A stretch of DNA of 11,123 nucleotides from Chthonomonadaceae bacterium (GTDB lineage: Bacteria > Armatimonadota > Chthonomonadetes > Chthonomonadales > Chthonomonadaceae), in contig JANXLO010000559.1 in assembly GCA_025355115.1 (NCBI GenBank), positions 1 to 11,123 of the forward strand, read 5' to 3'. The notes beneath the pieces were generated by a model. It worked only from the letters and a program-made list of their open reading frames with translations. It was not told the origin of the DNA and made no database searches. Positions 1 through 11,123 of the stretch are shown piece by piece. A program made the translations under genes and the position numbers. Position 1 is the first letter of the stretch. Every line of letters begins with the position of its first letter.

Positions 1-2280
1 CTGCCGCAACTGAGCGTACAGGTGCTCCCTACACGCAGCATCTATGAGTTTGGGAACGAGCAGATTTTTGTTACTTTGACGTTCATGACAGCGGCCCTGC
101 CCAACGACCTGAACGCCCTGGGACGCCCGCTGAGCTACCTCACCTGGAGCGTCCGCTCGGCGGACGCAAAGCAGCACAGCGTCTCGCTCTACGACAGCGT
201 CAGCTCGGGACTGGCCGTCAACTCTCCGAGGCAGGAGGTCGAGTGGCAGGAGGAGGCTATGGGCGGCCTCACGGCGCTGAGTGCCGGAACCCACAGTCAG
301 AATATCCTCGGCAGCTCGGGCGATGACCACCAGCTCGACTGGGGCTATGCGTACGCAGTCGCCCCCGCCTCACAATCAACACCAGCGACGGGATTGGCAC
401 AGAGCCTTGCTCTCGATTTCGCGGCCACCGGCACAGTCCAGAGCAGCAAAAACCTGCGGATGCCGCGCCCGGTGAGCGACGGCAATCCGACTCTGGCATT
501 CGCCTTCGATCTCGGAAAGGTCGGAGCCGCCTCGGTGTCGCGTCACCTGATGGTCGGCTACGACGAGATCTATTCGATCCTCTACTTCCGCCGGAAGCTG
601 CGCCCCTACTGGCGGCGCAACGGAGCCACGCCCGCTGTGATGTTTCAGGAGGCGGAGCGGGACTATCCGACCCTTGTGCAGCGATGCGAGAAGTTCGATA
701 GGGAGCTAATGGCGGATATGACGAAGGCGGGCGGCGAGAAGTACGCGCAGATCGCCGCGCTGGCCTATCGGGAGTGCGTTGCAGCCTGCGGCCTAGCCGC
801 GGACGCTAAGGGACAGCCCCTGTTCTTCACCAAGGAGAACACGAGCAACGGCGACATCGCGACCGTCGATGTCATCTTCCCAATGGATCCTATCTGGGTG
901 TTCCTCAGCCCCTCGCTCGCGAAAGCCAGCCTGGTTCCCATCCTTGATTACGCCGCCTCCGACCACTGGAAATTCCCCAACGCCCCGCACGACCTGGGCA
1001 CCTATCCCATCGCCCGCGGCACCGACGACGGAGGGGAGGGAATGCCCGTGGAGGAGAGCGGAAACATGCTCATTCTCTGCGACGCCATCGCTCAGGCGGA
1101 GGGCAACCCGGCGTTCGTCGCGAAGTGGTGGCCCCAGCTGACGAAATGGGCGGAGTATCTGGAAAAGTATGGCCTCGACCCCGAGGAGCAGCTGTGCACG
1201 GACGACTTCATGGGCCATCTCGCGCACAACGCCAACCTCTCCGTCAAGGCTATCCTCGGCCTGGCAGCATACGGCGACCTGTGCCGGATGCGCGGCGATA
1301 TGGCGAACGCGACGAAGTATCGTAATGAGGCGAAGGCCGATGCGGCGCACTGGATCAAAGTGACTCAGGAGAACGGGCACTCCAGGCTGGCCTTCGACAA
1401 AGCGAACACATGGAGTCAGAAATACAATCTTGTGTGGGATCGCATTCTGGGCCTGAACGTCTTCCCGCGCGGCATCGCGAAGCAGGAGGTCACCTACTAT
1501 AAGCAGGTGATTCAGCCCTACGGCGTCCCGCTCGACTCGCGCACCCATCTGACCAAGATGGACTGGTCGCTCTGGACGGCGACTCTTGCGGAGAACCAGA
1601 GCGACTTCGAGACCCTCATCGACCCGATCTACCGCTATCTGAACGAGACGACCGCCCGTGTGCCTATGGTGGATTCCTACGTCACAGACGACATCCACAG
1701 CGACGGGATGCATGCCCGCCCGGTGGTAGGCGGCATCTTCATCAAGATGCTGGCCAATCGAAGAGTATGGAGAAAATGGGCCAGCCAGGATCGCGAGAAT
1801 GTCGGGCCCTGGGACGATCTCCCCGTCAGGCCGATCGTCACCGACGTCGTGCCAACCTCTCAGCAGACTCCCGCGATCTGGCGCTACACCACCATCCTGC
1901 CCGCCGCTAACTGGTTTCGGCCCGGCTTCGACGACTCCGGCTGGAAGCAAGGGCCGGGAGGATTCGGCAACGCGGGCGCTCACCATACCGACTGGAACAC
2001 CTCGGACATCTGGATACGCCGCACCGTCACGCTGCCGGCTCGCAGCCTCTTCAACCTCCAGTTCCTGGTCTTCCACGACGAGGACATCGAGATCTACATC
2101 GACGGAGTCCTGGCGGGAAAAGAGGCAGGTTACCTTACCAGCTACGACTCCCTGGAGATCACCCCGGAGGCGCTTGCTCACCTGAAGCCGGGTGCCACCA
2201 TCACTATTGCCGCCCACTGCCACCAGACCATTGGCGGACAGGGCATCGACATAGGCATCGTCAGCGTCAAGGAGCGGTAG
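1..2280 (+). CDS. Glutaminase A-like protein (DUF5127/DUF4965/DUF1793) with C-terminal jelly-roll domain, 5'-truncated
   Basis: The frame is open from base 1, so the true start and any signal peptide lie to the left; 759 codons are present. The order matches the fungal glutaminase A (GtaA) family. A beta-rich N-terminal part comes first (to about 560; 'LTFMTAALPNDL', 'RPLSYLTWSVRS'). The DUF4965/DUF1793 alpha/alpha-barrel part follows (about 560-1780), with the hallmark stretch 'TKENTSNGDIATVDVIFPMDP' minus its first residue near 829-890 and 'GTDDGGEGMPVEESGN' near 1018-1067. The last 130 or so residues (about 1880-2270; 'FDDSGWKQGPGGFG', 'DIWIRRTVTLP', 'DEDIEIYIDGV') look like the galactose-binding jelly-roll found on many glycosidases. 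Fungal members hydrolyse L-glutamine outside the cell. The substrate of bacterial members is generally unproven, and the barrel and jelly-roll would also suit a carbohydrate-active enzyme. The family assignment is firm; glutaminase activity is inference. Confidence 0.85.
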   Translation: MPQLSVQVLPTRSIYEFGNEQIFVTLTFMTAALPNDLNALGRPLSYLTWSVRSADAKQHSVSLYDSVSSGLAVNSPRQEVEWQEEAMGGLTALSAGTHSQNILGSSGDDHQLDWGYAYAVAPASQSTPATGLAQSLALDFAATGTVQSSKNLRMPRPVSDGNPTLAFAFDLGKVGAASVSRHLMVGYDEIYSILYFRRKLRPYWRRNGATPAVMFQEAERDYPTLVQRCEKFDRELMADMTKAGGEKYAQIAALAYRECVAACGLAADAKGQPLFFTKENTSNGDIATVDVIFPMDPIWVFLSPSLAKASLVPILDYAASDHWKFPNAPHDLGTYPIARGTDDGGEGMPVEESGNMLILCDAIAQAEGNPAFVAKWWPQLTKWAEYLEKYGLDPEEQLCTDDFMGHLAHNANLSVKAILGLAAYGDLCRMRGDMANATKYRNEAKADAAHWIKVTQENGHSRLAFDKANTWSQKYNLVWDRILGLNVFPRGIAKQEVTYYKQVIQPYGVPLDSRTHLTKMDWSLWTATLAENQSDFETLIDPIYRYLNETTARVPMVDSYVTDDIHSDGMHARPVVGGIFIKMLANRRVWRKWASQDRENVGPWDDLPVRPIVTDVVPTSQQTPAIWRYTTILPAANWFRPGFDDSGWKQGPGGFGNAGAHHTDWNTSDIWIRRTVTLPARSLFNLQFLVFHDEDIEIYIDGVLAGKEAGYLTSYDSLEITPEALAHLKPGATITIAAHCHQTIGGQGIDIGIVSVKER

Positions 2281-2315
2281 CCATCCGTCCTGTTTGCACT
2301 CCCGTCGCCTCAAAC

Positions 2316-2373
2316 TACAAGGGCGCCTCAGTTGAGGCGCCCTTGTACTATGCGTAAGTCAAACCCGTTTTTT
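2316..2373 (+). terminator. Hairpin terminator after the GtaA-like gene
   Basis: Two perfectly complementary 15-base arms (2316-2330 and 2333-2347) begin 36 bases after the stop codon. The stem is rich in G and C, with only two bases between the arms, so the loop probably opens to four or six. There is no U-tract directly after it; a run of six T lies at 2368-2373, about 20 bases downstream. It is probably a transcription end for the upstream gene, though not a canonical one. It could also act as a back-up for the minus-strand RNA arriving from the right. Confidence 0.6.
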
Positions 2374-2434
2374 AGTCTCTATTTCCCGTGTCTACTTGAA
2401 TAATTCGTTCATATGCGTCATCCTTAGAGCGTCC

Positions 2435-2471
2435 AAAGAAAAAGGGAAGACAGACGGCCGTCTGTCTTCCC
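2435..2471 (-). terminator. Intrinsic terminator of the minus-strand RNA
   Basis: Bases 2444-2471 form a perfect 28-base palindrome (14-base arms, GGGAAGACAGACGG and its complement). Read on the minus strand it is followed at once by TTTTTCTTT (2443-2435). This is a textbook Rho-independent terminator pointing left. There is no T-run on the plus-strand side, so the direction is clear. It converges with the hairpin ending the GtaA-like gene, leaving about 95 bases between the two stems. Confidence 0.85.
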
Positions 2472-2776
2472 GAAACGCGGATTGTGCAAGCAAGTTGTGT
2501 GCCCTTGCTTTAGCAAGCGACGATGTTAGTCGCATCGTTCGCTTTAGCATGGCGCACGTTACGTTGGATGAATTGGAGAACCAATGCAGACGATAACGCA
2601 TCTCATTGGCATCGTGTATTACACGACCGGTATCGTGTAATACGCAGTGTGCCTCTTCCGGATGAACCGGAAGGACGCAGAGTAGGCGTCCCCTACTCAA
2701 GCACTAGGCTGTCCGGAAGCTAATGTCTTCCGGGCAGTCCCTCCATAAAACATCTCAACGTTACGCTTAATTGCAC
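2436..2776 (-). ncRNA. Unrecognised structured RNA, about 340 nt, with its own promoter and terminator
   Basis: The predicted transcript starts at G2776 and ends in the U-tract near 2436. Its first six bases (2776-2771, GTGCAA) pair with 2489-2484 next to the terminator, continued by three more pairs after a 2x2 internal loop. A second long-range helix joins 2766-2751 to 2570-2556: 14 pairs, one A-A mismatch, one bulge and one G-U pair. Enclosed local hairpins are 2709-2737 (11 bp, one mismatch), 2680-2698 (7 bp), 2655-2673 (7 bp), 2616-2643 (11 bp) and 2581-2609. Outside that helix lie 2515-2544 (11 bp, one bulge) and a pairing of 2551-2557 with 2499-2504. A few neighbouring helices share one to three bases. 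No credible reading frame exists: the longest minus-strand frame runs through the terminator and resembles no protein. I do not find RNase P RNA's AGGAAAGUCC core, a tmRNA tRNA-like end with CCA, or the SRP GGAAGGAAGCAGC motif. The function is unknown; a mobile palindromic repeat is the main alternative. Confidence 0.7.
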
Positions 2777-2782
2777 GAAGCA

Positions 2783-2811
2783 ATTGTAGCATGAATGACG
2801 CATTTTGTCAA
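2783..2811 (-). promoter_or_regulatory. Near-consensus sigma-70 promoter for the minus-strand RNA
   Basis: On the minus strand, TTGACA (2811-2806) is separated by exactly 17 bases from TACAAT (2788-2783), and TG one base before the -10 gives an extended -10 element. The -35 is a perfect match and the -10 has five of six bases. Initiation about 7 bases on predicts a start at G2776, which is also the first base of the terminal helix of the RNA. The agreement of promoter, structure and terminator on one strand supports a real transcription unit, probably strongly expressed. Confidence 0.8.
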
Positions 2812-3021
2812 CGGTTCGCCTGCGATTTAATCTCACTTGGCCGTCGTTAACCAATCAATAACTTCTGCGGCGTATCGACCATCGAAGTTGTGAGGTTGTC
2901 GCCTTGAAAGCATCCGGTCGAGCCTGGGACGTGATCGGCGTAATTGGGCCAAATCCCTGGCTTAGGACAGATCTGAGTAGACTGATGAGCGGAGAAGCAG
3001 CCATTAACGCGCTGCGGGGAG
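2812..3021. other. Spacer between divergent promoters, no gene recognised
   Basis: This stretch of about 210 bases lies between the leftward RNA promoter and the rightward rimO promoter. I see no tRNA, no start codon with a ribosome binding site, no strong repeat and no recognisable protein remnant in any frame. Regulatory binding sites could be present but none can be named. Confidence 0.5.
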
Positions 3022-3051
3022 TTGGCAATTTGGGCTCAAATGCGGTAAAAT
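3022..3051 (+). promoter_or_regulatory. Putative sigma-70 promoter for rimO
   Basis: TTGGCA (3022-3027), an 18-base spacer and TAAAAT (3046-3051) match the sigma-70 consensus at five of six positions each. Transcription would begin near 3058, giving a leader of roughly 95 bases before the chosen rimO start. The call rests on sequence match alone. Confidence 0.55.
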
Positions 3052-3151
3052 AGATGTTTAGTCAACCTTCTAAGTGAACCTGCCCTGCGGCGCAGCGTTG
3101 CGGACGCATTTTTTGTTGTGTCCGAGTGGCTGTCGCCGCCGAAAGTATGCA

Positions 3152-4534
3152 ATGCCCACGATCGAAATATCCCGTCCCAATGCCGGAAAGGTCAGCCTCA
3201 TAAACCTCGGCTGCGCGAAAAACGAGGTCGATTCCGAGGAGATGCTGGGACTGCTGGCGCGGGAAGGCTATGCCGTCGAGAGCAGCCGGACCCCCAATGC
3301 CGCGTCCCAAGGCACGGATGTCGTCGTCATCAATACCTGCGGCTTCATCGATGCCGCTAAGGAAGAGTCGATCAATACGATTCTCGAGGCCCTGGAGCGA
3401 AAGAAGCGGGGCGAGATCAAGCGTGTCGTGGTGGCGGGATGTCTGGTGCAGCGATACTCCGAGCAGCTTCGCATTGAGCTTCCCGAAGTGGACGCCTTCA
3501 TCGGGACCGGAAACATCGGGGATATCGGCACCGTGGTCGGGCAGTCTCTCATACGCACCGACCAGTTAATGCAGGTCGGCGAGAAGCCGCATCACCGCTG
3601 GGTGGAGACGCCGACTCGTGTTCGTCTCGGCGCGCCCTGGACCGCATGGCTGAAGATCTCTGAGGGATGCGACCATGCTTGCACCTTCTGCGCCATTCCC
3701 TCGTTCCGTGGCGGCCACGTCAGCAAGCCGTTCGAGCGCATCCTGGAGGAGGCCACGCTTCTGGCCTCGCAGGGAGTGCGCGAGCTCAATCTCATCGCGC
3801 AAGACTCGACGCAGTACGGCTACGACCTCTACGGCAAGATGCGGCTGCCGGAGCTGCTGCGTGAGCTCGCGCAGGTGAACGACATTCACTGGATACGCCT
3901 GTTCTACTGCTATCCGTCCCGCGTCAATCGGGGAATCATCGAGGCCGTCGCCACCACGCCAAAGGTCTGCCACTACATCGATATGCCGTTGCAGCACGCC
4001 GATGACGAGATGCTGCGCAAGATGCGTCGCCCCATGTCCAACGCAGGCTACCTGAAGCTGCTCGCCGACTTTCGCGCCGCGGCCCCCGATGTCGCCATCC
4101 GAACGACGTTCATCGTCGGCTTTCCCGGCGAGACGAAGGAGCATTTCGCGACGCTCGAGAGATTTGTCGACGAGGCGAGGTTCGACCGCGTCGGGGTCTT
4201 CGAGTACTCCGTCGAGGACGGCACTCCGAGCGCAGAGATGATGCCCAAAGTCCCTTCCCGCATCAAGCGCAGCCGCAAGGATCTGCTCATGCAGCGGCAG
4301 CAAGCGATCTCGCTCGCCTGCAACCAGAAGTGGGTAGGTCGCGAGCTGGAAGTCCTTGTCGAGAGCCGCTCTCCAATGGACATCACGACGGCCGTCGGGC
4401 GCTCGTTCCGCGATGCACCGGAGGTGGATGGGCAGGTGCTTGTGCGCCGATGCTCTGCCGCGCCCGGGAGCTTCGTCCGCACCAGAGTCGTGGAGGCTCG
4501 CCCATACGATCTGGTAGCTGAGCTTATCGTTTAG
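3152..4534 (+). CDS. rimO: Ribosomal protein uS12 methylthiotransferase RimO
   Basis: Radical-SAM methylthiotransferase that adds a methylthio group to the conserved aspartate of ribosomal protein uS12, a cytoplasmic ribosome modification. From ATG 3152 it has 460 residues, close to the usual 430-450. The N-terminal methylthiotransferase domain carries the three cysteines of the auxiliary 4Fe-4S cluster: Cys21 (NLGCAKNEVDSE), Cys63 (INTCGFID) and Cys97 (AGCLVQ). The radical-SAM motif is Cys173-x3-Cys177-x2-Cys180 (SEGCDHACTFCAIPSFRG). 'VGVFEYSVEDGTPSA' favours RimO over the tRNA enzyme MiaB, and a TRAM-like C-terminal part follows. An in-frame GTG at 3074 would add 26 residues unlike the family, so ATG 3152 was chosen. 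Its ribosome binding site is weak, with only GAAAG nearby. The gene stands alone behind its own probable promoter; the next gene follows after 76 bases. Confidence 0.95.
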   Translation: MPTIEISRPNAGKVSLINLGCAKNEVDSEEMLGLLAREGYAVESSRTPNAASQGTDVVVINTCGFIDAAKEESINTILEALERKKRGEIKRVVVAGCLVQRYSEQLRIELPEVDAFIGTGNIGDIGTVVGQSLIRTDQLMQVGEKPHHRWVETPTRVRLGAPWTAWLKISEGCDHACTFCAIPSFRGGHVSKPFERILEEATLLASQGVRELNLIAQDSTQYGYDLYGKMRLPELLRELAQVNDIHWIRLFYCYPSRVNRGIIEAVATTPKVCHYIDMPLQHADDEMLRKMRRPMSNAGYLKLLADFRAAAPDVAIRTTFIVGFPGETKEHFATLERFVDEARFDRVGVFEYSVEDGTPSAEMMPKVPSRIKRSRKDLLMQRQQAISLACNQKWVGRELEVLVESRSPMDITTAVGRSFRDAPEVDGQVLVRRCSAAPGSFVRTRVVEARPYDLVAELIV

Positions 4535-4610: not shown

Positions 4611-6437
4611 GTGGCAACCGCCGTTATTTCGAAGTCACAGGAGCCGCAGACGCCGGAGCAACTCGCTGCCCGCTATGCCGGTGACCTGATTCATAAAGCT
4701 CTGCTTCAGACCGGTGAGCCGATGAAGGCCGGCGACGTCGCTCGCGCCGTGGGGCGGCCCGATGTGGACTCCAGGCTGGCCCGCGTCGCCCTGACCACCA
4801 ATCCGCACATCACTGCAGTCGATCGCAAATGGACGCTCTGGACGCGCTACCTCGACGCGAACAGCACGTTCGATTTCAATGTTCGCCGCATCCTCAACAC
4901 GATGGGCCAGCCGATCCGGATCCCCCATTTGGCGAACGAGCTGCACACCGTCTACGGGCGGCCCGCAGAAATTTATGAGGAGATGCTCGAGTTCCTGCTC
5001 TCCGACAGCCCGCGCTATTTCCGCGTCGGGGAGGACTACGTGGCTCCCTCCGACTGGCTGCTCCAGGCGGAGCACACCAATGAGGAAGATGTTCTGTTCG
5101 ACAATTTCCTCGAGGACGAGGACGTGCTCCCCTACATCGAAACGGCGGAGGCAGTCGGGCTTGCGACGGACAAGCCCGAGACGATTGCCGCTCTGCTTGA
5201 TACGGTCGGCAGGCCCCTCAAAACGAAGGCTCTGCAGTTTCTCGTGTGGCGCAAGGATCAGGATAACTTCAACCCTTACGCATTCTACAACGGGCTCTTT
5301 CTGACCAGCGGGGCGGCGCCCCTTTCGGACGGAACGTGGGCCGGCCCGAAGCAGATTGCTGAATTCGTCGCGCACTTCCCTATTCTCGCCGAGCAGGAGG
5401 TCAGCGACACCGCGGAGACCGATGCACAGGAGGCAGCGCAGCCACTGGTTCTCGGCGACCCGGAGCGCGAGCAGCTTGTTGATAGCGTTCTGGACAGCGA
5501 AGATTCAGTGCGAGCGTCCATTCTGCTGGAGGACCTGTTCGAGGTCACGCCGGACTACCGCACCTACACCGAAGACCTGATCGCGATCACGGATGCCCTG
5601 AAGGCCGATGAGCGCGTGCTCTGGGTGGGAGGCGACCGCTACCGCCCGCAGGGCACTCTGCCCGGCTACGTGTTCAGCGTTCCCGGCCTGCTCGACATCC
5701 CCGAATATCACTTCCTCGACTCCGAAGGCAATGTGGTCGACCAACTGCTCGAAGACGGCTTCGAGAATGGGCTGGACCGGGAGATGCTCAACCCGCTCGT
5801 GCAGGACGTGCTGGACGAGGAGCCTGTCCCGTCAGCCGATCCCAACCCGCCCTCAAACGCTCGCGCGGTCATCAAGTATCACCACAAGCAGATCGGAACG
5901 CTGCCCCTGTGCCAGTTTCCGTCGGGCTTCTTCCCTGCAGAGCCGACGATCCTGGAGACCGAGTTCGTTCTTCCCGGCGGACAGAAGGCGCGGGTTTGGG
6001 TCAACAATGAGACCCGACTTCTCTACGGCCTGCTCGACTGGTTCCAGTCCATTCCCATCGACTCTGGCGCGACCTTCACGCTGGAGCGACAGGCGCTCGA
6101 TCGCTACGTCATCACGTACAACGACGAGAGCGAGCCCACGATGTTCATCAGCCGCAACCGTGTCAACGAGCTGCTGGCGCTTCAGGAGAAGGCCGAGACC
6201 GAAAATCTGCCGACCTTTGAGATCATGCGCGAGATCATGGAGCACTACCGGAAAGGCATCGAGTACCTTACGTTGCACACCGAGATCAACATCGTGCGCC
6301 GTGTCACGCGCCGCCTGACCGCCTCCCTGCTGTCGGAGTACCATTGCTACTTCCAGCGCGGTGGTGCCTGGGTCTACGATGCGAAGAAGCTCATCCAGGG
6401 CTTCGACAAGAGCAAGCGAAAGTACCTGCAAAAGTAG
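4611..6437 (+). CDS. Large hypothetical protein with probable tandem winged-helix modules
   Basis: I do not recognise this 608-residue protein. It has no signal peptide and no membrane segment, so it is probably cytoplasmic. The N-terminal part seems to repeat a unit of helices ending in a short beta 'wing' with an aromatic: residues about 24-80 (ending KWTLWTRYLD), 88-150 (RYFRVGEDYVAPSDWL), 188-246 (LSDGTWAGP) and 300-350 (VLWVGGDRYRP). 'TMGQPIRIPHLANELHTVYGRP' minus its last two residues, and 'TVGRPLKTKALQFLV', occupy equivalent positions. This resembles stacked winged-helix domains such as the HARE-HTH type, from which DNA or RNA binding is inferred. Acidic linkers follow near 155-180 and 255-300. 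Residues about 415-510 look beta-rich, and the last 70 are helical with a basic tail (RRVTRRL, DKSKRKYLQK). It is 76 bases after rimO and 205 before gltX, with composition like its neighbours. The reading frame is certain, the function unknown. Confidence 0.85.
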   Translation: MATAVISKSQEPQTPEQLAARYAGDLIHKALLQTGEPMKAGDVARAVGRPDVDSRLARVALTTNPHITAVDRKWTLWTRYLDANSTFDFNVRRILNTMGQPIRIPHLANELHTVYGRPAEIYEEMLEFLLSDSPRYFRVGEDYVAPSDWLLQAEHTNEEDVLFDNFLEDEDVLPYIETAEAVGLATDKPETIAALLDTVGRPLKTKALQFLVWRKDQDNFNPYAFYNGLFLTSGAAPLSDGTWAGPKQIAEFVAHFPILAEQEVSDTAETDAQEAAQPLVLGDPEREQLVDSVLDSEDSVRASILLEDLFEVTPDYRTYTEDLIAITDALKADERVLWVGGDRYRPQGTLPGYVFSVPGLLDIPEYHFLDSEGNVVDQLLEDGFENGLDREMLNPLVQDVLDEEPVPSADPNPPSNARAVIKYHHKQIGTLPLCQFPSGFFPAEPTILETEFVLPGGQKARVWVNNETRLLYGLLDWFQSIPIDSGATFTLERQALDRYVITYNDESEPTMFISRNRVNELLALQEKAETENLPTFEIMREIMEHYRKGIEYLTLHTEINIVRRVTRRLTASLLSEYHCYFQRGGAWVYDAKKLIQGFDKSKRKYLQK

Positions 6438-6642: not shown

Positions 6643-8172
6643 ATGTCCGTTCGAGTGCGTTATGCCCCTTCCCCCACTGGCTCGCCCCATGTCGGCAACC
6701 TACGCACGGCAATCTACGACTGGCTTTTGGCCCGCAAAGAGGGCGGGAAGTTCATTGCCCGCCTGGAGGACACCGACCGCTCACCCGAGCGCTACGTCCC
6801 CGAAGGCATCTACGACATTGAAGCCAGCCTGCGCTTCCTCGGCATCATGCCGGACGAGTGGTGGGTGACGGGGGGATCGGCCGGCCCATATGTGCAGAGC
6901 CAAAGGCTCCCGATCTATCAAGCAGAGATCGAGCGCGTCATAGCATCCGGGTCGGCTTATCGCTGCTACTGCACACGAGAGCGTTTGGACGAGATGCGGA
7001 AGGCGCAGCAGGAGCGCGGCACCCCCACCGGTTATGACCGGCGTTGCCGCTTCCTCTCGCCAGAGGACAGGGCGCGTCACGACGCGGAAGGCAAGCCCTC
7101 GGTGGTCCGGCTCGCCATGCCGCTCGACGGGGTGACGGTGCTGCACGACGAGATACGCGGCGACATCACCTATGAGAACAGGCTGCAAGACGATCAGGTG
7201 CTGATCAAGTCCGACGGCTTCCCTACCTATTTCTTCGCCTGCGCGGTGGACGATCATCTGATGGGCATCACGCACATCATCCGTGGCGATGACTGGCTCT
7301 CCTCCGCGCCGAAGCTAGTGCAGGTTTTTCATGCCCTCGGGTATCCGCTGCCGAAATTCGTCCACCCGCCTCTCATCGTCGGGGCAGACAAGAAGAAGCT
7401 CAGTAAGCGGCACGGTGCCACGCAGTTCAGCTGGTTTATGGAGCAGGGTTATCTGCCGGAAGCGCTTCTGAACTTTCTCGTGCTGCTCGGCTGGTCTGCG
7501 GGCGATGAGAACCGCGAGCTGTTCACCATTCCGGAGCTGATCGAGAAATTTTCCATCGCCGGAATGTCGGAGCACCCCGCAGTTTTCGACTACGACAAGC
7601 TGAACTGGATCAACGGTCAGTATATCCGGTCCAGCGAGCCAGGGCGCATCATCGGCCTCTGCCTGCCGTATCTCCGCAAAGCAGGCCTTATCCCCGAGCC
7701 GCCGCCAGGGGATGCCAGCGACGAGGAGAAGCGCATCTATCGCGAGACCTGGCTGGACTACGCCCGCCGCATCATCCCCCTCGAGCAGGAGCGGATGAAG
7801 GTGCTGAGCGAAGTCGTGGATCTGGTCGGCTTCTTCTTCGAGGATCTCGACTACCCCAATGGGTACGAGCCCAAGGCTGTCGCAAAATGGATGGGAGTCG
7901 CTCATCTTAAGCCCCTTCTTGAGAAGGAGATCACCGCCTTCTCCGCTTTGCCGGACTGGACAGCCGCCGCGCTGGAGGCATCCGTTCGCGAGATCACCGA
8001 GGAACTGGGCGTCAAATTCGCGGAGGTCATACACCCGACCCGCGTCGCAGCCACCGGACGCACCGTCGGACCCGGCCTGTTCGAGACCCTCTGGGCGCTC
8101 GGCAGAGAGCGCACTCTGCATCGTCTCCGCACCGTGCTGGAGAAAAATGATTGGCCTTCGACAGGAGCATAG
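6643..8172 (+). CDS. gltX: Glutamate--tRNA ligase (GluRS)
   Basis: Class I aminoacyl-tRNA synthetase that charges tRNA-Glu with glutamate in the cytoplasm, and in bacteria lacking GlnRS also tRNA-Gln. The product has 509 residues, slightly above the usual 470-490. The HIGH-type motif is YAPSPTGSPHVGN (residues 7-19) and the KMSKS-type motif is KLSKR (252-256, in KKKLSKRHG). Cys108-x-Cys110 with Tyr131-x3-Cys135 resembles the zinc site of GluRS and its relatives. The catalytic core continues through 'IIRGDDWLSSAPK'; the C-terminal helical part is the anticodon-binding region. ATG 6643 is preceded by GGAG at 6631-6634 and starts directly before the first catalytic motif, so the start is secure. 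The stop is 4 bases before the next gene. Whether the enzyme discriminates between the two tRNAs cannot be judged from this sequence. Confidence 0.96.
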   Translation: MSVRVRYAPSPTGSPHVGNLRTAIYDWLLARKEGGKFIARLEDTDRSPERYVPEGIYDIEASLRFLGIMPDEWWVTGGSAGPYVQSQRLPIYQAEIERVIASGSAYRCYCTRERLDEMRKAQQERGTPTGYDRRCRFLSPEDRARHDAEGKPSVVRLAMPLDGVTVLHDEIRGDITYENRLQDDQVLIKSDGFPTYFFACAVDDHLMGITHIIRGDDWLSSAPKLVQVFHALGYPLPKFVHPPLIVGADKKKLSKRHGATQFSWFMEQGYLPEALLNFLVLLGWSAGDENRELFTIPELIEKFSIAGMSEHPAVFDYDKLNWINGQYIRSSEPGRIIGLCLPYLRKAGLIPEPPPGDASDEEKRIYRETWLDYARRIIPLEQERMKVLSEVVDLVGFFFEDLDYPNGYEPKAVAKWMGVAHLKPLLEKEITAFSALPDWTAAALEASVREITEELGVKFAEVIHPTRVAATGRTVGPGLFETLWALGRERTLHRLRTVLEKNDWPSTGA

Positions 8173-8176
8173 GAAT

Positions 8177-10318
8177 ATGAACAGAATGCGCATTATGCAG
8201 ATTGGCGGAGCTGCGGTTGCTATGCTTGCCCTGGGTGGCCTCGGCGTTCGGGCGCAGGATAGATTGAAGACTATGCCTGCCTATGAGCACTATGCCAGGG
8301 CTATTCAGGATCTGAACGGGGCGATGAGCAGTTACCGCAGCAGCGGAGTAAGCGGCGTGGTCTGGACGGACGACGGTAAGGCGGTGGGCTATACGAAGGC
8401 CGGGAAGAGCTATCGCTACGACCTGACGACCCATCAGACTACGCCGGTCGACGAGCCAATTAAGGGCGTGGGGCAGATAGGGGGAGGGGGCAGGCGACGC
8501 GGAGGAGGAGGGGGCGCGCCGGAGCGGGGGCGACAATTTGCCTCGGCGATTTCCCCGGACGGCAAGCTGAAGGCGTTCTATAAGGACAGCAATCTCTGGC
8601 TCAGCGACGGCGATGACGCCAACCCGGTTCAGATCACCGTCGACGGAAGCAAGGCAGCGCGGATCAAATACGCCACGGCCAGTTGGGTGTACGGCGAGGA
8701 GCTGGAACAGCGAACCGCGATGTGGTGGTCGCCGGACAGCAGGCGAGTCGCCTTCTACCGGTTCGATGAGAGCAAAGTGCCGGACTACTATCTGGCGATG
8801 CACACCCTCCAAACGCAGGACACGCTCGACGCTGAGGCCTATCCGAAAGCGGGCGCCCCCAATCCCATCTCAGACATTCTAATCTACGATACGCAGACTA
8901 AAACGAGCCAGACGATAGACGGCCGCGACGGCAAGCCGTTCGCCGACGCGACAGTGGGCCACTATTTGTACGGTGTCGAGTGGTCGCCAGACGGCAAAGA
9001 GCTTCTGCTGCACCGCACCAACCGCAAACAGGACATCATGGAGTTTGCAGCCTGCGACCCCGTAACGGGAAAATGCCGCATGATCGTCCGCGAAACATGG
9101 CCCGCAAGCTGGACGGAGAACCTGCCGACGATGCAGTTTCTCAGCGACGGCAAACGTTTCCTCTGGGTCTCTGAGCGGACTGGGTTCCGAAATCTCTATC
9201 TCTACGATCTTTCGGGCAAACTCCTCGCCCCTCTGACTGAGCATCCCTTCGAGGTTGTGAGCATCGTGAGAGCGGATGAGACAGGCGGCGCAGTTTTCTA
9301 TATGGCGAGGGATGGCGATAATCCCTACAAGCTTCAGCTGCATCGCGTAGGACTGGACGGAAAGGGCGATGCTCGCCTCACCGATCCGGCGTTCACTCAC
9401 CGCGTCCTGTTCGCTCCAGACGGCAAGACTTTTCTTGATGTCGCGGAGAGCCATGACGCGCCCGTGGCGACCCGGCTTATGGACAGCAATGGCAAGCTGC
9501 TCGAGACGCTCGGCCAGGCAAGCGATGCCGCTTTGAAGGCGAAGGGCTTCACTCCTGGTGAAGTGTTCACATACAAGTCGGCGGACGGCAAATCGAACTG
9601 CTATGGCCTGCTCTTCAAGCCGTCCAACTTCGACCCCAACAAAAAGTACCCCATGATCGTCTCGGTCTACGCAGGGCCGGGCGTCGGGGCAATGATCCGG
9701 GAGAACTTCGCCGTACCCAACTCGATGACCGAGCTTGGCTTTCTGGTCGCGGAGTTCGATGGGCGCGGGCAGGAGGGACAGGGCAAAGCCTTCAAGGACG
9801 CGCTCTACCGCAATCACGGCCGGCCGGAGATCGACGATCAGGCGGCGGGCGTGAAATACTTGCGTCAGCGCCCCTATGTCGATGGCGCGAACGTCGGCAT
9901 CTTCGGAACATCCTACGGCGGCTACGCCTCCATCATGTGCCTGCTTCGCTATCCGGACGTGTTCAAGGCCGCGAGCGCCTCTTCAAGCGTGACGGATTGG
10001 CGCAACTACGATAGCATATACACGGAGCGATTCATGGGCATGCCGGACGACAACAAGGCGGGCTACGAATTCGGCTCCGCGATGACGCATGCCGCTGATC
10101 TCAAGGGCCGACTGCTGCTCTACTACGGCACTGCCGACAACAATGTGCACCCGGCCAACACCTATCAACTGATCCAGGCTCTCTCCCGTGCCGGAAAAGG
10201 TTACGACCTCCAAATTGGTCCGGACCAGGAGCACACAGGCGTCAACTTCGCCCGCATGATGGAGTTCTTTATGGACAGCCTGGTGCTGAAACCCACAGGC
10301 GGTTTGACCGCGCAGTGA
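8177..10318 (+). CDS. Secreted DPP4-like serine exopeptidase (family S9)
   Basis: Predicted to remove dipeptides from peptide N-termini, probably after proline or alanine, outside the cytoplasm. ATG 8177 gives 713 residues and a signal peptide: basic start (MNRMR), hydrophobic run, likely cleavage after Ala26 (VRA-QD). GGAG at 8164-8167 supports this start, although the frame is open further left inside gltX. Residues about 40-490 form the DPPIV N-terminal propeller, with the Glu174-Glu175 pair in 'WVYGEELEQ' that in DPP4 anchors the substrate amino group, favouring exopeptidase action. The alpha/beta-hydrolase domain carries the triad Ser579 (GTSYGGYAS), Asp654 (GTADNNVHP) and His686 (DQEHTG), in the right order and spacing. 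Residues 102-119 are a glycine/arginine-rich insert. The gene starts 4 bases after gltX, suggesting one mRNA, and may supply peptides for nutrition. The exact specificity is inferred. Confidence 0.93.
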   Translation: MNRMRIMQIGGAAVAMLALGGLGVRAQDRLKTMPAYEHYARAIQDLNGAMSSYRSSGVSGVVWTDDGKAVGYTKAGKSYRYDLTTHQTTPVDEPIKGVGQIGGGGRRRGGGGGAPERGRQFASAISPDGKLKAFYKDSNLWLSDGDDANPVQITVDGSKAARIKYATASWVYGEELEQRTAMWWSPDSRRVAFYRFDESKVPDYYLAMHTLQTQDTLDAEAYPKAGAPNPISDILIYDTQTKTSQTIDGRDGKPFADATVGHYLYGVEWSPDGKELLLHRTNRKQDIMEFAACDPVTGKCRMIVRETWPASWTENLPTMQFLSDGKRFLWVSERTGFRNLYLYDLSGKLLAPLTEHPFEVVSIVRADETGGAVFYMARDGDNPYKLQLHRVGLDGKGDARLTDPAFTHRVLFAPDGKTFLDVAESHDAPVATRLMDSNGKLLETLGQASDAALKAKGFTPGEVFTYKSADGKSNCYGLLFKPSNFDPNKKYPMIVSVYAGPGVGAMIRENFAVPNSMTELGFLVAEFDGRGQEGQGKAFKDALYRNHGRPEIDDQAAGVKYLRQRPYVDGANVGIFGTSYGGYASIMCLLRYPDVFKAASASSSVTDWRNYDSIYTERFMGMPDDNKAGYEFGSAMTHAADLKGRLLLYYGTADNNVHPANTYQLIQALSRAGKGYDLQIGPDQEHTGVNFARMMEFFMDSLVLKPTGGLTAQ

Positions 10319-10352: not shown

Positions 10353-11123
10353 ATGCCGACAGCACTGGACTTTTCAGCAGAGGAGATAGCCGACGGGAAG
10401 ATGGAGTCTGGCAAGCTTGAGGCTGCGTGTGCGGCTCTGCGCGCGGATGGATTCGTCGTGCTGAACGATATCGTGAATCCTGCTCATCTGGAGACGCTGC
10501 GCGTGAAGATGCTCGAGGATTTGGCGGCGATTGTGGCGAGGGCCGACGCGCCGTTCAATTTCAATGCGGGGAATGTGCAACAGGATCCGCCGCCGTTCGA
10601 GCCCTATCTGTTTCGAGATGTCCTGCTGAACGAGCTGGTGATTCAGGTGACTAAGGCGATGCTCGGCCCCGGCCTGAAAAACAACTTCTACAGCGGCAAC
10701 ACCGCGCTTCCCGGTGAACGGATGCAGCCAGTTCACCCGGACGTGGGACAACTATGGCCGGACCTGGAGACCGCCTCCCCGCCATTCGGCTTCGTCGTAA
10801 ACATTCCCGTCGTGGACATGTCTCCCGAGAACGGCAGCACAGAGCTCTGGCCCGGAACGCACCGCGACACGACGATAAGCGACGCCAGAGGCGACATCAA
10901 AGTCCCCGAGTCTGCGCTTGACGACTGGCGCGCCTCGCGCCCGCCAATTCAGCCCTCCATCCGTTGCGGCGGTGTCCTGATTAGAGATATTCGCCTCTGG
11001 CATCGCGGGATGCCCAACCGCACGTTGGCCCCGCGCCCCATGATCGCCATGATCCACTGGATACGCTGGTGGAGCGACCGGGAACGCATCACGTTTTCCA
11101 CTGGGACGGAAGCTTTCCTCCAG
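10353..11123 (+). CDS. PhyH-family Fe(II)/2-oxoglutarate dioxygenase, 3'-truncated
   Basis: The frame runs open for 257 codons to the right edge, so the C-terminus is missing. ATG 10353 is preceded at 8 bases by AAGGAG (10339-10344), 34 bases after the peptidase stop; co-transcription is likely. The protein fits the phytanoyl-CoA dioxygenase superfamily, which hydroxylates diverse small molecules using Fe(II), O2 and 2-oxoglutarate. An N-terminal helix-rich part with 'LRADGFVVLNDIVNPAHLETLR' minus its last two residues is the usual opening. The iron ligands appear as His128-x-Asp130 (QPVHPDVGQLW) and distal His217 (IRLWHRGMPNRT). Arg228, 11 residues later, matches the family position that binds 2-oxoglutarate. 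'SPENGSTELWPGTHR' is a typical core strand-turn. There is no signal peptide. The substrate is unknown: members act on lipids, natural products, phosphonates or ectoine, and nothing nearby chooses among them. Confidence 0.88.
   Translation, partial: MPTALDFSAEEIADGKMESGKLEAACAALRADGFVVLNDIVNPAHLETLRVKMLEDLAAIVARADAPFNFNAGNVQQDPPPFEPYLFRDVLLNELVIQVTKAMLGPGLKNNFYSGNTALPGERMQPVHPDVGQLWPDLETASPPFGFVVNIPVVDMSPENGSTELWPGTHRDTTISDARGDIKVPESALDDWRASRPPIQPSIRCGGVLIRDIRLWHRGMPNRTLAPRPMIAMIHWIRWWSDRERITFSTGTEAFLQ

Follow-up and report, generated by a model that had tools for sequence, protein, structure and literature searches.

A gene-like locus encoding a candidate orphan structured RNA in a Chthonomonadaceae genome

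Described structured RNAs and the setting of the locus

6S RNA, like the candidate RNA described here, is a stand-alone structured RNA, but it consists of one long hairpin with a bubble, whereas the candidate is predicted to adopt a multi-branched fold. GOLLD, ROOL and OLE share with the candidate that they are stand-alone bacterial RNAs of elaborate structure whose function is unknown or unclear (PMC12286853). GOLLD and ROOL are located in phages and prophages, one ROOL example measures 659 nt, and many GOLLD RNAs exceed 800 nt (PMC12286853). In contrast, the candidate is ~340 nt long, the Rfam models of GOLLD, ROOL and OLE are unmatched at the locus, and its contig contains no phage gene among the genes matched by Pfam. 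The literature searched, mostly papers available without subscription, yielded nothing about the locus or about a comparable RNA from Armatimonadota.

The window analysed is an entire contig of 11,123 nucleotides (G000:C132) of a 3.66-Mb genome that is distributed over 774 contigs and is 73.85% complete. The RimO protein encoded in it is most similar, at 78%, to that of a Chthonomonadaceae bacterium, so that the organism is a relative of this family within the Armatimonadota. The candidate RNA gene lies on the minus strand in the intergenic region 2281-3145, and all annotated genes of the contig are on the plus strand:

1-2280, plus strand: GtaA-like gene with DUF5127 (Pfam)
3146-4534, plus strand: rimO
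4611-6437, plus strand: gene for a protein of 608 aa that matches no Pfam family, located after rimO and before the glutamyl-tRNA synthetase-type gene
6643-8172, plus strand: glutamyl-tRNA synthetase-type gene
8177-10318, plus strand: DPP IV-type peptidase gene
10353-11123, plus strand: PhyH-type gene, truncated by the contig end

The contig contains no minus-strand gene downstream of the candidate, and the GtaA-like neighbour is convergent with it. The first-pass annotation had argued from the lack of an adjacent minus-strand gene that the RNA is not a leader, and this stands; a riboswitch or attenuator leader is rejected because a convergent gene takes the place of a downstream gene on the same strand. 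A small protein was also dropped as an explanation, the three overlapping reading frames being without Pfam match. Beyond the GtaA-like gene, a strong inverted repeat without a clear T-run is present at 2311-2352.

No Rfam family was found in the whole window at gathering scores, and the covariance models gave nothing relevant around the locus at E-values up to 10; the locus has thus not turned out to be a known RNA. The earlier view that it lacks the hallmarks of RNase P RNA, tmRNA and SRP RNA agrees with the Rfam models of these, none of which matches the window. The RNase P RNA of the genome is encoded elsewhere (C348:3074-3439; 278.6 bits with RF00010), and the candidate lacks a match to this model. 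The candidate is most likely not 6S RNA either, since it does not match RF00013 and a probable 6S RNA was found at C623:2431-2611. The latter scores 41.4 bits, which is below the cut-off of 46.4 bits, whereas the 6S RNAs of three relatives score above it. Within the family, Rfam detects 6S RNA in only four of 17 genomes, so its model may not cover this branch.

In the RNase P gene of the genome, a TTGACG-17-TAGAAT promoter is followed, after a gap of 6 nt, by an RNA closed by its own ends and then by a terminator whose tail is rich in T. The candidate resembles it in its similar length, 17-nt spacer, 6-nt gap, end-to-end closing helix and intrinsic terminator, and differs from it in leaving the family model unmatched. 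Not every RNA gene of the genome has such a promoter, since no promoter with at least 9 of 12 consensus matches was found in the stretch scanned at the probable 6S gene.

Promoter, terminator and predicted fold

The features of the candidate, from promoter to terminator, are as follows:

2783-2811, minus strand: sigma-70-type promoter TTGACA-17-TACAAT with TG preceding the -10 (11 of 12 consensus matches)
2776, minus strand: predicted transcription start, a G, 6 nt past the -10 (from promoter spacing only)
2484-2776, minus strand: structured RNA body (293 nt), whose closing helix P1 pairs 2776-2766 with 2494-2484 (predicted fold)
2776-2771/2489-2484 and 2769-2766/2494-2491, minus strand: pairs of helix P1 (predicted fold)
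2558-2764, minus strand: long-range helix P2 (2764-2751 paired to 2570-2558), inside which the hairpin array lies (predicted fold)
2764-2763/2559-2558, 2761-2756/2566-2561 and 2754-2751/2570-2567, minus strand: pairs of helix P2 (predicted fold)
2707-2740, minus strand: hairpin 1 (predicted fold)
2680-2698, minus strand: hairpin 2 (predicted fold)
2655-2673, minus strand: hairpin 3, with the stem sequence of hairpin 1 in reverse order (predicted fold)
2616-2643, minus strand: hairpin 4 (predicted fold and palindrome sequence)
2580-2610, minus strand: hairpin 5 (predicted fold)
2497-2557, minus strand: 3' domain, its pairing less certain, with pair probabilities from 0.32 to 0.98 (predicted fold)
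2436-2471, minus strand: intrinsic terminator, consisting of the perfect palindrome 2471-2444 and a T-run (sequence)

The near-perfect sigma-70 promoter and the canonical intrinsic terminator of the first-pass annotation were both recovered, and they are placed in gene order around the folded part. When the intergenic region 2281-3145 was dinucleotide-shuffled 1000 times, an equally good promoter on either strand appeared in 11 of the shuffled sequences, and a terminator this strong (perfect stem of at least 10, at least five T in eight) in one; after the palindrome, the minus strand reads TTTTTCTTTG. At looser settings no enrichment was seen, with three promoters of at least 9 of 12 matches in the whole window against 2.8 expected, and six terminators against 7.9 expected. 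RNA polymerase would start at or near G2776 and transcribe leftward over ~340 nt, probably stopping at the terminator. The 6-nt gap between the -10 and the first RNA base is the same at the RNase P gene of the genome. The proposal that G2776 is both the first base of the RNA and the opening of its closing helix agrees with the fold in its second part, P1 beginning at 2776; the start itself is placed by promoter spacing only. An inverted repeat, AATTGC-TTCGT-GCAATT (2769-2785), covers the last bases of the -10 as well as the predicted start, and it could be an operator or be part of P1 by chance.

The full RNA of 341 nt is predicted to fold at -153.7 kcal/mol, compared with a mean of -99.5 (sd 5.2) for 100 shuffles (z = -10.4). 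For the RNA minus the terminator (301 nt) and for the body (293 nt), z amounts to -9.6 and about -9, respectively. A 300-nt window was also slid along both strands of the contig, and each of the 362 positions was compared with 16 shuffles; the 12 with the most extreme values started at 2221-2581, six per strand. The outer helices P1 and P2 are predicted with pair probabilities of at least 0.83, and they are not a by-product of composition, since the 5' strand (first 31 nt) was scrambled 500 times without once reaching the observed -129.3 kcal/mol (mean -118.2, best -127.9). The claim of a closed multi-branch fold of ~340 nt is upheld as a prediction above chance. The RNA is predicted to close on itself through P1 and P2, which surround five hairpins together with a 3' domain, a fold that it may also adopt in the cell. 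P2, previously drawn as 2766-2751 with 2570-2556, was confirmed as a helix enclosing five hairpins, and its ends at 2766 and 2556 were slightly off in the full-length fold, where P1 takes up 2769-2766. It is extended inward by 2745-2741/2578-2574.

According to the predicted fold, unpaired sequence is scarce beyond the hairpin loops and a short 3' linker (2483-2472). Alternative folds are possible, since hairpins 1 and 3 share a reversed stem sequence and the loop of hairpin 2 can pair with the bases immediately 3' of it; for some sections of the RNA, alternatives lie within 1 to 2.5 kcal/mol. Hairpin 4 harbours a 13-base palindrome, CGTGTATTACACG, at 2613-2625, with a partial copy at 2634-2644, 21 bp or two helical turns away; the pair resembles tandem operator sites.

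Copy number and search for relatives

In its genome, 74% complete, the locus is single-copy, save for the terminator palindrome, which matches its own opposite strand. The scattered copies that would point to a repeat element were thus not seen, and a multi-copy repeat or MITE is rejected.

Homologues had been called for from related genomes, and no convincing one was found in 291 Armatimonadota genomes from 156 genera, including 16 others of the family; three weak matches were chance-like. The genome itself is the sole representative of its genus in this set. A DNA search of 151 genomes at an E-value of 1e-3 returned the own locus only, and in one of 31 genomes at E-values up to 10, the matches listed included short ones of 15-39 bases in scattered positions. 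In the 291 genomes, with the best two candidates considered per genome, two matches of 22-23 bases were obtained (E = 0.004 and 0.008), of which the 23-base one is a single palindrome resembling hairpin 1 (29 nt, 15.8 bits). The model R1, whose reach is limited because it was built from a single sequence, gave one weak match besides its own in each of the sets of 151, 291 and 39 genomes (E = 0.245, 0.065 and 0.86, respectively).

Targeted searches had a similar outcome. Synteny provides no anchor, since 14 loci of the family differ in the strand, length and spacing of the genes upstream of rimO; 29 rimO loci (L004-L032) gave no blastn match at E-values up to 1, and nhmmer returned a single match there (E = 8). 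On 58 loci near GtaA-like genes or with weak DNA matches, the best R1 score was 18.7 bits over 87 nt (L119), which was judged chance. R1 was also run on the window together with 47 further loci, which took in 17 of 80 RimO loci and left out 63 (L052-L114); the best score besides the candidate itself was 17.7 bits over 34 nt. Plasmids gave no match, and phages a single 48-nt match (E = 0.03), also judged chance. Four exact patterns found 0, 0, 5 and 0 stretches in viral contigs, and R1 did not match the five.

As a yardstick, the RNase P RNA of the genome detected 14 of 14 RNase P loci of the family by blastn (E = 1e-57 to 1e-115), and its 6S RNA two of three 6S loci at E-values up to 1e-3, missing that of G005. 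Thus, conservation like that of RNase P RNA is excluded, conservation like that of 6S RNA could partly be missed, and a faster-evolving RNA would be missed. The suggestion of a new large noncoding RNA family is not supported at present, as no convincing second member was found in the 291 Armatimonadota genomes and the putative family has one member.

Readings of the locus

The locus is gene-like, structured and an orphan on the basis of its sequence; it is real as a locus and a candidate as a transcript and as a family. The first-pass description of a stand-alone, structured minus-strand RNA of unknown class fits the order of promoter, fold and terminator and the lack of an Rfam match. We consider it probable that the locus is a stand-alone, lineage-restricted gene for a structured noncoding RNA, so far found in its own genome only. 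The absence of homologues from the genomes searched, and with it of covariation, weighs against this reading, as do the fold of the opposite strand and the small number of G-U pairs.

The alternative that survives best, although unlikely, is a cluster of DNA palindromes, i.e., sites bound by proteins, a recombination or replication site rich in hairpins, or the remains of a small element, with the RNA fold as a by-product. Both strands fold about equally well, the opposite one at -136.2 and the own one at -129.3 kcal/mol, whereas the own strand folded better in all 18 controls (14 RNase P, with one RNase P locus omitted, and four 6S RNAs). This difference is a caution and not a refutation, since the advantage of the complement, 0.024 kcal/mol per nt, is smaller than the standard deviation (0.039) among 112 ordinary windows of the contig. 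An opposite strand with a nearly equal fold lends the RNA reading no further support; it accords with largely Watson-Crick stems, G-U pairs making up six of 106 predicted pairs, and it keeps the palindrome explanation alive. In addition, several stems are perfect Watson-Crick palindromes, and hairpin 4 contains the tandem 13-base palindromes 21 bp apart. However, promoter and terminator flank the folded part precisely and on one strand, the long-range closing helices are above chance, the locus is single-copy, and the ends of P1 show no target-site duplication by eye.

Doubtful as well is a trans-acting antisense small RNA that would pair with mRNAs through a few exposed bases. A stand-alone promoter and terminator are typical of such RNAs, and their rapid turnover between genera is common, but most small RNAs are shorter than the candidate, and unpaired sequence is scarce in it outside the hairpin loops and the 3' linker. 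A diverged member of a known family missed by Rfam is very improbable: the models can fail on deep branches, as the sub-threshold score of the probable 6S RNA illustrates, but lax thresholds also gave no relevant match, and RNase P RNA is, and 6S RNA probably is, encoded elsewhere in the genome.

If the locus is indeed a stand-alone RNA gene, the folded RNA might, quite tentatively, act as a scaffold or decoy for a protein. A scaffold-like or protein-binding role appears more likely than an antisense one, as few bases are unpaired and both ends are tied up in the predicted fold. There is a small chance that the RNA is the first known example of a new class of bacterial RNAs that are of medium size, close on themselves and bear several hairpins. 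Such a class would be restricted to one genus-level lineage of Armatimonadota and would serve as a protein scaffold or self-assemble. At present, it is one candidate from a genome that is incomplete. Were it transcribed, the locus would offer a clean case of an orphan structured RNA with full gene signals and an elaborate fold, without a relative among the 156 genera searched in the phylum, and orphan cases of this kind test the rate at which large structured RNAs are born and lost.
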